The notes under the pieces are model-generated. The model saw only the letters and a program-made list of their open reading frames with translations. It did not search any database and had not been told where the DNA came from. 46,190 nucleotides of DNA from Candidatus Zixiibacteriota bacterium (GTDB lineage: Bacteria; Zixibacteria; MSB-5A5; GN15; FEB-12), in the NCBI GenBank assembly GCA_029860345.1, contig JAOUBJ010000023.1:1-46190 (forward strand), given 5' to 3'. Shown here one piece after another: positions 3,916 to 36,065 of this stretch. The number at the start of each line of letters is the position of its first letter. Position 1 is the first letter of the stretch. The position numbers and the translations under genes are program-made.

Positions 3916-4153
3916 ACATGCACCCTCCATCTTAGTCACATTTGATCACCGATGCCGATTCAAAGGTAGGATGTGCCCTGCTGTTGCACAAGTGAAAAGA
4001 TGGACCCCCGCCTTCGCGGGGGTGACAGAGGGCTGCGGGGGTGATACCCATAAATGGGTATCTTACGCTTTGCACCCGGCGTTGGTCGCACCCTTCGACT
4101 GCGCTCAGGGTGACTGGAGTAACGCGCGAAGCGCGAAAGAACCCATTTATGGG
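3916..4153. repeat. Intergenic repeat cluster between cyclase and aldolase genes
   Basis: This gap holds several palindromes. 4001-4026 is a copy of the repeat at 2924-2949. 4043-4062 is the hairpin GATACCCATAAATGGGTATC. 4089-4114 is CACCCTTCGACTGCGCTCAG followed by GGTGAC, a family also present at 35930-35943 and, in part, at 13248, 15952 and 20990. 4141-4154 is a second ACCCATttATGGGT palindrome that overlaps the stop codon of the aldolase gene. The last could serve as part of a terminator for the aldolase transcript, but it has no clear T-run. Confidence 0.7.
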
Positions 4154-5212
4154 TTACGCCACCGTCACTTCATCGCACAGGTAGACATCCTGGATGGCAT
4201 TAAGCAACGCAACGCCGTCTTTCATCGGCTTCTGAAAGGCTTTGCGTCCGGAGATCAGACCCATGCCGCCGGCCCGTTTGTTGATGACAGCCGTGAGCAC
4301 TGCCTGGGCCAGATCCGACGAATCGGACCCGGTGGAAGCACCGCCTGAGTTGATCAATCCGGCCCGCCCCATGTAGCAGTTGGCCACCTGGTAGCGGGTG
4401 AGGTCGATGGGGTTGTCGCTGGACAGTTCGTCATAGACCTTTTTGTGCGTCTTGGCGAAACTGATAGCGTTGAAGCCGCCGTTACATTCGGGCAGTTTCT
4501 GTTTTATAATGTCGGCTTCGATGGTGACACCGAGATGGTTGGCCTGTCCGGTCATATCGGCTGCGGTGTGGTAGTCGGTGCCGTCCTTTTTGAAACCTGA
4601 GTTGCGAAGATAGCACCACAAGACCGTGAACATACCCAACTCGTGTGCTTGCGAAAAGGCCTCGGTGACTTCTGTAAGCTGCCGCATCGAGTTGTCCGAA
4701 CCGAAGTAAATCGTGGCGCCGACACCGACCGCGCCCATGTTGAAAGCGTTCTCGACCGAGGAGAACATCACCTGGTCATGCTTATTGGGATAGGTCATCA
4801 ATTCGTTGTGGTTCAGTTTCAGAATAAACGGAATCTTGTGGGCATACTTGCGGGCCACGGCACCGAGTACGCCGTAGGTCGAAGCTACGGCATTGCAGCC
4901 GCCCTCAATAGCCAACTCGACGATTTTCGCCGGGTCGAAATAATCCGGGTTGGGAGCAAACGATGCGCCGCCGGTGTGCTCGATGCCTTGATCCACCGGC
5001 AGAATCGAAAGGTATCCACTGCCGTTCATGCGACCGGTGGTGAACATCCAATTCAGTGAGCGCATCACGGCCGGGGTGCGATCCGACTGGGCCACGACAC
5101 GGTCTACAAAATCCGTACCCGGCAAGTGCAGTCGTTCCTTTGGTATCCCTTTGCACTTGTAGCTGAGTAGGCCCTTATCATCTCCTAAGTACTGCTCAAT
5201 CTTCGCAATCAT
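4154..5212 (-). CDS. fbaB: Class I fructose-bisphosphate aldolase, DhnA/FbaB type
   Basis: The 352-residue length equals that of the E. coli DhnA/FbaB family. It catalyses reversible cleavage of fructose 1,6-bisphosphate to dihydroxyacetone phosphate and glyceraldehyde 3-phosphate in glycolysis and gluconeogenesis. Family landmarks include [20 protein letters not shown] near residue 70, [10 protein letters not shown], the EADIIKQK segment with the probable Schiff-base lysine Lys237, and the C-terminal phosphate-binding region [15 protein letters not shown] and [12 protein letters not shown]. It is a Schiff-base enzyme, so no metal ligands are expected. The gene stands alone and is divergent from the ABC exporter genes. 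The start ATG at 5212 is preceded by AGGAGATAAGGAC. A firm call. Confidence 0.95.
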
Positions 5213-14608: not shown

Positions 14609-15913
14609 ATGGCCCAATACAAAACCGCACCGCTTGAGAGTTGGACCAAGGCCAAAGAACTCAGGCTGAAGTACTACCAGGATTACCAGGAGGCACACAA
14701 AAACGGCGGGCTGCGCTGGACCGGGGGAGCCTGGGCGTTCGATGCTATCCCGGCCGGGCTGGGTCGCGACGTTTACAATATCACCGGCGAACCTTATGGC
14801 GCCTCGATTGCCTTCGACAAAAAGCTCTCGATGGAATGTATGGAAGCAGCCGAAGCCAAAGGCTGGGCGCGTGACCTTTGCAGTTACATGCGCAACTACT
14901 GGGGCTCGATGTACTTGAACAAGTATGCCTTCGGCGGCGAGTATCCCAAGCCCGATTTCTGTTTCCAGGATCATATTTGTTGCAGTCACGGCAAGTGGTA
15001 TCAGCACGTGGCCGAGTACAAAAAGATTCCGTATTTCTGCATCGATGTATCGGTGGGTCCCTACGAAGATGTCGATGAGAACCGTTTGATGTTCGTCGTC
15101 AACCAGATGCATGAATCCATCGAATGGCTGGAGAAAACAACCGGCCGCAAGTACCAGGACGAACTGCTGATCGAGGCGGTCAAGAATGAGTTCCGCTCAA
15201 CCGCGGCCTGGGCTGAAGTCTGCTATCTCAACATGGCCAGGCCGGCGCCGCTGGACGAGAAAACGATGTACTCGCTTTACGTGCACGGTACTTTATCCAA
15301 GCACTCCGGGGAGATTGCCGATTTCTACGAAGAACTGCGCGACGAGGTGCAATACCGAATCGACAACCAAATCGCGGCCGTGCCCAACGAACGCTGCCGC
15401 CTTATGTCCGACACGCAACCGCCTTGGGGATTTTTGAAAGTCTTTCGCTATCTTGAGAAGTTCGGCGCGGTGTCGATCGGTTCGCTATACACCTTCGGGC
15501 TGATCGGAATCTGGGAAGATAAACCGGACGGCACCTGGGGTCCACGCACGACGCCGATGCAGAAAGGTGAGGAGATCACCACTCGCGATCAGGCCCTTCG
15601 CCTGCTGGCCGACTGGAATCTGGCCAAGCCGGAGTGGCAGCATTTCTATGATCCCAACCTGAAGACCAAGATGATGCTGCAAATTTGCAAACAGTGGGAG
15701 GTAGACGGTGTCATGCTGCATCTGAACCGTGGTTGCGAGGGTCTTTCGTGCGGTATCATGGAAAACCGCCTGGGTATCGCCGAGGCCGGTGTGCCGGTGA
15801 TGACTTTCGAGGGCAACATGGGTGACGAACGTGAATTCGACGAGAAGCGCGTTATGGCACGGATTGATTCGTTTATGGAAACCCTCGATATCGAGATGTT
15901 GCAAGAGGCGTAG
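14609..15913 (+). CDS. bzdO: Benzoyl-CoA reductase subunit, BzdO/BcrB-like
   Basis: The start is ATG at 14609 (434 residues); GAGAGG lies 11 bases upstream, and an earlier in-frame start would overlap bzdN by 32 bases. It is the second catalytic subunit of the class I benzoyl-CoA reductase. Landmarks are the N-terminal [34 protein letters not shown] and [20 protein letters not shown] (cysteines likely to hold the [4Fe-4S] cluster), and the C-terminal [18 protein letters not shown] 434-residue length equals the BzdO/BcrB class and is longer than most dehydratase subunits. It sits 19 bases after bzdN in one transcription unit. A block of repeats (15914-16201) separates it from the ATPase subunit genes, which is unusual for such a tightly coupled complex. 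Confidence 0.87.
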
Positions 15914-16201
15914 TAGTGTGCGTGGTGTACGTCCTCGTGCGTCGTTCCATGTCATGCTGAGCGCAGTCGAAGCAAAGAGGCAGATGAGGACATCCGCCGC
16001 CCACACAATGTTGCAGGAGGAGTAGAGGATTGTTGAATCACACCGCGTCAGAAACAGAAGTGCAGGCCTGGGGCGATGCTTGTCATTCCCGCGCAGGCGG
16101 GAATCCATCCGTTAAGACCGGCCAGTGGATGCCCGCCTTCGCGGGCATGACAGACCTGGCGAGGTTGGCAACACTTACAATTGAAGACGACAGGAGGTAT
16201 G
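15914..16201. repeat. Repeat block between bzdO and bzdP
   Basis: Two elements lie here. 15920-16004 has GCGTGGTGTACGTCCTCGTG at its left and GGCAGATGAGGACATCCGCC then GCCCAC at its right; the same two parts occur at 38464-38528. In the copy here they are separated by TGTCATGCTGAGCGCAGTCG then AAGCA, a member of the 4089 family, as if inserted. 16082-16151 is a pair of facing palindromes, GTCATTCCCGCGCAGGCGGG... and ...GCCCGCCTTCGCGGGCATGAC, with about 18 bases between them. CAGGAGG at 16191-16197 is the ribosome site of bzdP. Confidence 0.75.
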
Positions 16202-20593: not shown

Positions 20594-21094
20594 TAGTGAC
20601 ATGCCTCAACCTTGTCATGCCGGACTTGATCCGGCATCCAGTCTTCTCTTCGGGTGGCCGTCTCAAACCTTGTTTGGGACGGGAATCCTTCAGAAGAAGA
20701 ATCACCCCCAAAGAACTTTGAGGGTGCCACCCCTGATGGGGTCCGTTTGTATGACAGTATGAGGTAGGTCAGGACCCTTGTGGTCCTGACAATTGAGTCA
20801 GGTCCGTAAAGGACCTGACCTACAAGAGACCGGCCTTCGCCAGTATGACAAACGTTTTGCAGGTGCGTCTTGCTCCCCTCTTGAGAGGGGATTCAGGAGT
20901 GTGTTACTGGGATCATTAGAAGAAGAAACACACCCCGCCCTTCGGGCAGCCCTCTCAAGAGGGAAAAAGAACGGCAGCCCTACTGTCAGCCTGAGCGAAG
21001 TCGATGGGTTAAGTCGCGGAACTTGAATGGAGGACATAGGTCGAGACCCCTGCCCCGAAGGGGTCGCAATGCGAGGTTTCGACACCGGTAGATT
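20594..21094. repeat. Dense repeat cluster after bzdV
   Basis: Members recognised in order: 20618-20640 GTCATGCCGGACTTGATCCG then GCA; 20652-20684 (GGCCGTCTCAAACCTTGTTT then GGGACGGG); 20702-20731 (CACCCCCAAAGAACTTTGAG then GGTGCCACC); 20764-20823, a 60-base double palindrome (separate entry); 20871-20887 and 20946-20961, facing CCCCTCTTGAGAGGGG-like units; 20990-21004 of the 4089 family; 21037-21084 TAGGTCGAGACCCCT... GAGGTTTCGACA. No gene is seen. The block splits the aromatic-acid cluster, so the next genes probably have their own promoter. Confidence 0.75.
20764..20823. repeat. 60-base double-palindrome element, copy 1
   Basis: It starts GTAGGTCAGG and ends CCTGACCTAC. Each half is itself a hairpin (GTCAGGACCcttgtGGTCCTGAC and GTCAGGTCCgtaaaGGACCTGAC), separated by a six-base spacer. 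The element at 27607-27666 is the inverted copy, identical except in the spacer and of exactly the same length. Confidence 0.9.
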
Positions 21095-35589: not shown

Positions 35590-36065
35590 GTCGGCAGGTC
35601 TGTTCAGGTTATGGTACTTAGGGTCGTGTCGCATTGTGTTGGGTACCGTTTCACAAGAAGACCAATGCCCTCCCGTTTTGTCATGTCGGACTTGATCCAG
35701 CACAGGTAAACCTGTTATTCGCGCTGAGCGCGTTATTCTACATCCGTAATCCTTATGTGAGCAGGGCTCCTAACTGGAGGTCCCAAGACTGGATTCCGGC
35801 CTTCGCCGGAATGACGGTGGAGGGCCACGCACGGCGATGGTAATCCAACTTTCCTCCTCCGCCTACTTGACCCAGAGGCGCATTCAATTATATTCCGACC
35901 TATTGATCCTGTAGCGGTAACACCCTTCGACTGCGCTCAGGGTGACAGGGTCAAGCCCTGTAATTGGCGCTTTGCGCCCTGCGTATTGGCATTCGACAAC
36001 GGTACCCCACCCAGAGCAAGGCGTTGGGTGGGTTGTGATCAGATAACAACGAGAGGAAAAAGAAC
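35590..36065. repeat. Intergenic repeat region before the dehydrogenase gene
   Basis: 35680-35702 (GTCATGTCGGACTTGATCCA then GCA) and 35789-35815 (CTGGATTCCGGCCTTCGCCG then GAATGAC) are facing palindrome halves about 86 bases apart. 35930-35943 belongs to the 4089 family (TTCGACTGCGCTCAGGGTGAC). 36006-36032 is a hairpin CCCACCCA...TGGGTGGG just upstream of the ribosome site GAGAGGAAAA. No gene is seen. A promoter for the dehydrogenase is expected but not recognised. Confidence 0.65.

Follow-up and report, generated by a model that had tools for sequence, protein, structure and literature searches.

A head-to-head dimer of CGTC REPs without a gene, and GIY-YIG nucleases bracketed by the same palindromes as the leading candidate for its mover

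Introduction

The window analysed here comprises 46,190 nucleotides (contig JAOUBJ010000023.1, positions 1 to 46,190, assembly GCA_029860345.1) from Candidatus Zixiibacteriota bacterium. At positions 16082-16151, two palindromes face each other with no gene between them, at the junction of two genes which we take to be bzdO and bzdP, both names being taken over from the initial annotation. That annotation read the pair as a non-autonomous derivative of a GIY-YIG unit, having its two ends without the gene. The locus raises the question of what these palindromes are and which enzyme moved them.

CGTC REPs are a published superfamily of palindromes which includes dRS3 of Neisseria and RPE-4 and RPE-6 of Rickettsia (Di Nocera, De Gregorio and Rocco 2013, PMC3733652). 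In passages of that paper, CGTC-1 REPs are defined by a CGTC or TGTC tag, an 8-bp stem with A-T at its first positions, a 4-base loop and a CCA tail, heterodimers are described for CGTC REPs, and RAYTs are linked to the REPs with a GTAG tag (PMC3733652). The CGTC REPs are stated to "lack a dedicated transposase", and the term GIY-YIG has 0 occurrences in the text (PMC3733652). CGTC REPs are found in many phyla, and what moves them has been an unanswered question from 2013 at the latest. The searched passages of RepRanger 2025 contain neither 'nuclease' nor 'RAYT', and no link between a GIY-YIG gene and CGTC REPs was found in the literature searched, with bioRxiv and most subscription journals outside its reach.

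Results

The gene-less pair at the bzdO-bzdP junction

The annotated pair at 16082-16151 was confirmed: it consists of two 26-base hairpins, both perfect, which face each other across a gap of 18 bases between bzdO and bzdP, with the GTC ends outside and the CCA tails inside. The left REP (16082-16107, + strand, GTCATTCCCGCGCAGGCGGGAATCCA) has 8 of 8 stem pairs, a loop of 4 bases and a CCA tail; the spacer, delimited from the sequence, occupies 16108-16125; the right REP (16126-16151, - strand, GTCATGCCCGCGAAGGCGGGCATCCA) has 8 of 8 stem pairs and a CCA tail, on a stem unlike that of the left arm. The difference between the arms is thus compensatory, both stems being complete. With a TGTC tag at 16081-16084, the pair has all the elements of a CGTC-1 REP (tag, stem, loop and CCA tail). 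Folding of the 70-mer as DNA gave one long hairpin of -26.4 kcal/mol (z = -6.4), equalled by 0 of 200 shuffles, and the scanner found 7 hairpins in the window versus a mean of 0.23 and a maximum of 2 in 30 dinucleotide shuffles. The locus is a head-to-head dimer of CGTC-1 REPs and an ordinary member of the published superfamily; it may have a regulatory side effect.

We then compared the junction with orthologous loci, as the initial annotation had proposed. The pair was missing from the bzdO-bzdP junction of all seven relatives, and the spacing between the same aligned ends was 29-78 bases in these relatives versus 286-308 in the window; the whole intergenic stretch differs in the relatives, which makes the junction unreadable at the base-pair level. 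No target-site duplication was visible at 16082 or at the listed dimers; the empty sites that were aligned, here and in the comparisons below, are too diverged for base-pair resolution. Directly upstream of the palindromes, at 15913-16005, lies a repeat of about 93 bases with GTCATGCTGAGCGCAGTCGAAGCA, copies of which, 80-90% identical, are present in this genome and in sister genomes.

The gene-bearing unit and its second copy

The window also carries a unit with a gene, at 2599-2949, in which a REP on the + strand (2599-2624, 3' side of the gene), a GIY-YIG gene on the - strand (2628-2914) and a REP on the - strand (2924-2949, 5' side) follow each other, both REPs being detected by the scanner. 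The gene matches Pfam PF01541 with 49 bits and is a pseudogene, its frame being broken near the 5' end. An intact copy encoding 95 aa lies elsewhere in this genome, at G000:C15:137580-137864 (L008), with the layout and spacing of the window unit. The 26-base palindromes of the two units are identical on both sides, and the genes have clearly diverged (75% protein identity over the aligned part). In the scanner's search, the two other small GIY-YIG genes and the five Y1_Tnp genes of this genome were without such palindromes; a single distant match, at L006, is attributable to chance. The 16082 pair belongs to the palindrome family of these units but is not an exact copy of their two ends, since its left arm is one loop base off and its right arm has a different stem.

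REPs elsewhere in the window and in the genome

Two solo REPs were found by the scanner, one at 4001-4026 (- strand), as annotated, and one with a 5-base loop at 20614-20640 (+ strand), slightly displaced from the position of 20618 given before. The second facing pair, annotated at 35680-35815 with about 86 bases inside, has a perfect right arm (35790-35815, - strand, scanner) and a decayed left arm (35680-35706, + strand), which the scanner missed as a hairpin and which was recognised by eye against the REP at 20614; the interior is about 83 bases. Two other motifs recur near these elements: a hairpin, GTCAGGACCACAAGGGTCCTGAC, at about 20750-20795 of the window and at L297, which is recurrent in the genome sample, and a short palindrome, ACCCATTTATGGGT, which recurs whole or as its half beside REPs (window 4050-4160; L300 and L305).

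The genome of 4.76 Mb has 139 places with at most 3 mismatches to the core, versus 0 for a reversed-pattern control. Of the 14 copies with two mismatches among the 100 matches listed out of these 139, 11 have compensatory stem changes. In a sample of 846 kb, made of the window and a systematic set of forty 20-kb stretches, 71 palindromes formed 15 neighbouring pairs at 150 bp or less, when about 1 is expected in any orientation. Ten of these pairs were head-to-head (+-), four tandem (--) and one tail-to-tail (-+). The gap was 13-18 bases in 7 of the 10 head-to-head pairs, so that 16082-16151 is a typical member. The arms were unlike in all 10, and the TTCCCGC/CCCCCGC combination of the genome's two gene-bearing units recurred in 3 of them, once mirrored; the 16082 pair shares only the left arm type with those units. 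The initial annotation had named a prevalence of randomly oriented singletons as the outcome that would speak against it: singletons indeed accounted for 43 of the 71 palindromes, but the orientation of the close pairs was not random. Decayed partners were rejected as a general origin of these singletons, the inner facing arm exceeding the 95th percentile of random windows in just 7 of 43 and the outer-side control in 2 of 43.

Bracketing of GIY-YIG genes by CGTC REPs

The intact nuclease protein has matches in at least 98 of the 132 genomes of the phylum. We defined clade I as the genes with tblastn scores of at least 109 bits, which gave 134 genes from phylum genomes, genome_contigs loci and plasmid-collection records. 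The phylum genomes contributed 30 automatic loci and 80 further regions (60 close or middle and 20 distant) taken from the matches listed; a number of short or partial ones scoring under about 73 bits were left out, regions at contig ends are incomplete, and four duplicates (L011, L156, L183 and L195) and a UvrC locus (L009) were dropped before the tree and the census counts.

With a strict scanner, which detects 8-bp stems only, facing CGTC REPs within 250 bp were found on both sides of 77 of the 134 clade-I genes, on one side of 30 and on neither side of 27. The corresponding numbers for random 285-bp intervals of the same loci were 6, 43 and 621 of 670 (Fisher p about 1e-62, relatedness ignored). 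The nearest REPs within 100 bp pointed inward in 160 cases and outward in 16; their median distance was 16 bp from the gene start on the upstream side and 9 bp from the aligned gene end on the downstream side. Among the 80 genome_contigs loci, REPs were present on both sides of 46, on one side of 18 and on neither side of 16, and many of these 16 had longer-stem or diverged palindromes when inspected by eye; the bracketed ones came from Pseudomonadota, Thermodesulfobacteriota, Nitrospirota, Chloroflexota, Omnitrophota, Myxococcota, Moraniibacteriota, Planctomycetota, Bacteroidota and others. A motif-free test, in which the flanks share an inverted repeat of at least 12 bases, was positive for 73 of 130 clade-I genes and 22 of 46 middle-clade genes versus 1 of 400 control intervals.

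CGTC-1 REPs were present in 38 of the 39 genomes with a fetched clade-I gene versus 47 of the 93 others (kinship ignored), so that 47 genomes have REPs and no clade-I gene that was found. Three organisms listed as CGTC-positive in 2013, A. lipoferum, Sinorhizobium meliloti and Novosphingobium aromaticivorans (PMC3733652), have such genes adjoining palindromes, which are diverged in Novosphingobium. In a Neisseria gonorrhoeae record (L121), a GIY-YIG relative with 55% identity lies within a dRS3 cluster and its nearest palindromes face outward, unlike the usual layout. In L013, L030 and L122 (A. lipoferum), the gene is flanked on either side by a complete head-to-head pair. The 13 matches in phage records were all at 40% identity or less.

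Correspondence between palindrome type and nuclease clade

The genes of the next clades (80-109 bits) were mostly without CGTC REPs and were bracketed by other palindromes of the same grammar, with GTC at the outer ends, namely type B (GTCATTGCGAG...AGCAATCTC) and type C (GTCATTCTGAGC...GAATCTC). Motifs of type B or C pointing inward were found on both sides of 24 of 48 next-clade genes and on one side of 6, versus 0 and 40, respectively, of 480 random intervals. On a tree of 182 proteins, palindrome type required 6 changes versus a shuffled mean of 34.4, and 0 of 200 shuffles were as low; with both-flank labels only, 4 changes were required on the same tree. Labels were placed on 154 of the 182 rows, 28 rows scored as 'none' or 'mix' being unlabelled, and label A also takes longer stems; many inner forks are unresolved, with relatives clustering anyway, and long-branch flags fall on L076 and L200_914. 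Two types occur with two nucleases in one genome or contig in G044 (L021, A; L064, B), G064 (L025, A; L071 and L083, B) and L144 (A and C, 600 bp apart). Such cases speak against genome composition as the sole cause.

Other GIY-YIG relatives showed further associations. A small neighbouring group (L058, L063, L070 and L062) has palindromes with a CCTT-like outer tag, by eye, and not GTCAT. A distant clade (L007 at G000:C16:97887-98093, and L101-L120) lies at tRNA 3' ends: a tRNA or tmRNA 3' end was located 13-388 bp upstream on the same strand in 13 of 22 distant-clade loci (tRNA-Ser in 9) versus a tRNA in 1 of 22 clade-I loci, and in 6 of the 13 the gene was followed by 15-19 bases that repeat the 3' end of the tRNA (shuffle maximum 12). 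These genes look like minimal nuclease islands. Four of the tRNA-linked genes (L103, L112, L113 and L120) have another palindrome family, CCTGAGC...GTCGAAGG, sometimes with tandem GIY-YIG genes.

Occupied and empty sites

At the junction of fnrL and a regulator gene on Sphingobium plasmids, the unit was present in 7 of 11 records, one collapsed palindrome was present in 2 and none in 2; the alignment covered 2 of the 7 occupied records and all 4 others. The single palindrome of TomTYG74 and TomTYG64 is composed of the left REP's outer arm joined to the outer part of the right one, and TomTYG72 and TomTYG65 have no palindrome at this site. Between sufB and sufC of Azospirillum, the unit is present in A. 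lipoferum 4B, where both of its sides have a complete pair, and the three aligned relatives are empty.

Properties of the nuclease

The intact nuclease matches Pfam PF01541 (GIY-YIG) with 58.8 bits versus a cut-off of 22.6. Pfam found no further domain in its 95 residues, and no NCBIfam family scored above its cut-off. Residues Y7, Y18, R28, H32 and E65 were invariant in 19 sequences; in 36 sequences the same residues were invariant except E65, conserved in at least 90%. The conserved Tyr, Arg and Glu are presumably catalytic, the roles being assigned after I-TevI. The dN/dS ratio was 0.06-0.09 in four usable pairs, L008, L012 and L041 being left out with saturated synonymous sites, and the nuclease is therefore under purifying selection. 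The AlphaFold2 model (pLDDT 95.3) had Slx1 as its best structural match, with a middling Z of 7.1 (3.0 A over 93 residues), followed by UPF0213 (Z of 7.0) and then by UvrC and I-TevI among others. Slx1 is described as a structure-selective nuclease, and this likeness of the model suggests a hairpin or cruciform as the predicted substrate.

Discussion

A pair of CGTC REPs is known as such; what is new is that CGTC-type palindromes and GIY-YIG nucleases go together consistently and match clade by clade. The palindromes described here have the TGTC or CGTC tag, the 8-bp stem starting with A-T, the 4-base loop, the CCA tail, the head-to-head dimers and the heterodimers of the published set, for which the 2013 paper reports no transposase and does not mention GIY-YIG, whereas a nuclease gene is consistently bracketed here. 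The REPIN/RAYT systems (REPtrons) also combine many short paired palindromes and a rare gene flanked by them in one genome, but they have an HUH tyrosine transposase and a GTAG tag instead of a GIY-YIG nuclease and GTC. The nuclease shares its fold and catalytic motifs with the GIY-YIG superfamily (UPF0213 1zg2, Slx1, the N-domain of UvrC and I-TevI); Slx1, UvrC and I-TevI carry accessory domains, while the present protein is a bare domain of 95 residues bracketed by palindromes of its own type, and no superfamily member tied to REPs was found in the literature searched. Like prokaryotic MITEs, the gene-less pairs are short, have paired ends in common with a gene-bearing unit and contain no gene; they differ in that both of their ends form hairpins and that target duplications were not observed.

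A functional partnership between the GIY-YIG nuclease and CGTC REPs is very probable. Since the palindromes consistently bracket its gene in many bacteria, the nuclease is the leading candidate for the missing mover of these REPs. The full form of the repeat system would be REP, GIY-YIG nuclease gene, REP, encoding a protein of about 95 residues with a bare catalytic domain and a short helical C-terminus. This nuclease most likely recognises the hairpin or cruciform of its own palindrome family and would cut there or close by. When the cut is repaired or replicated, the segment between the palindromes would be copied to another site, whether it contains the gene or not. The intact nuclease at G000:C15 would in this way act in trans on the gene-less dimers of this genome, and solitary palindromes may be what is left of collapsed or decayed pairs. 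We regard this scheme, of a full form whose nuclease cuts its own palindromes and propagates gene-less dimers in trans, as the best explanation of the whole and a fairly likely one. That gene-less pairs are moved by the GIY-YIG nuclease, through mobilisation in trans, seems rather likely in its own right. The non-autonomous reading of the initial annotation is partly supported, by the association across phyla, the enrichment of gene-less facing pairs, the arm combination that three of them share with the gene-bearing units and the absence of the window pair from seven relatives; this pair may have arisen from a gene-bearing unit by deletion. We put forward a wider proposal with some hesitation, and would not rely on it yet: there would be a superfamily of mobile elements in which a GIY-YIG nuclease of minimal size, unaided by any transposase or recombinase, cuts its own clade-specific hairpin and in this way multiplies both itself and large numbers of palindromes that lack a gene. 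Repeats of the GTCATTGCGAG and GTCATTCTGAGC types would then belong with the CGTC REPs to one system, the GIY-YIG counterpart of REPIN/RAYT.

The palindromes could instead be the target where the gene lands and not its ends. The gene would then be a homing-type parasite, repeatedly inserting into its cleavage site, the spacer of facing pairs that spread by other means. Free-standing GIY-YIG homing enzymes are known, REPs far outnumber the genes, the gene sits between two complete pairs in L013, L030 and L122, and TomTYG74 and TomTYG64 have a lone palindrome at the Sphingobium site. However, the palindrome type switches with the nuclease clade, the usual form has one REP per side at a short distance, and the two strains without any palindrome at the Sphingobium site look as if the whole unit had come or gone; we consider homing unlikely.

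Movement of the REPs by RAYT or IS200-type (HUH) transposases, with the nuclease as a passenger, would follow the precedent of the GTAG REPs, linked with RAYTs in passages of the 2013 paper (PMC3733652), and a Y1_Tnp match is present in 119 of the phylum's 132 genomes. Yet facing CGTC REPs within 400 bp were found at 0 of 35 Y1_Tnp loci, the ground on which RAYTs were rejected as the partner of CGTC REPs, none was found flanked in 2013 either (PMC3733652), and the tag is TGTC and not GTAG; such a mover is highly improbable. Still less credit goes to the view that the palindromes are terminators or mRNA-stabilising hairpins lying by chance around many genes, the bzdO-bzdP pair being a transcript feature. 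The intergenic place and the strong hairpin would suit it, but only 6 of 670 random intervals were bracketed versus 77 of 134 genes, and the same gene junction lacks the pair in seven relatives.

With a candidate enzyme and matched palindromes for each clade, the question of the mover of CGTC REPs becomes testable in vitro. If the cutting of its own palindromes by the GIY-YIG nuclease is true, REP-type elements would have a second, non-HUH chemistry, and a role could be assigned to the numerous small genes whose sole annotation is 'GIY-YIG nuclease family protein'. It would also bear on the question, left open in the passages available from Dunin-Horkawicz 2006, of whether further GIY-YIG members are molecular parasites.
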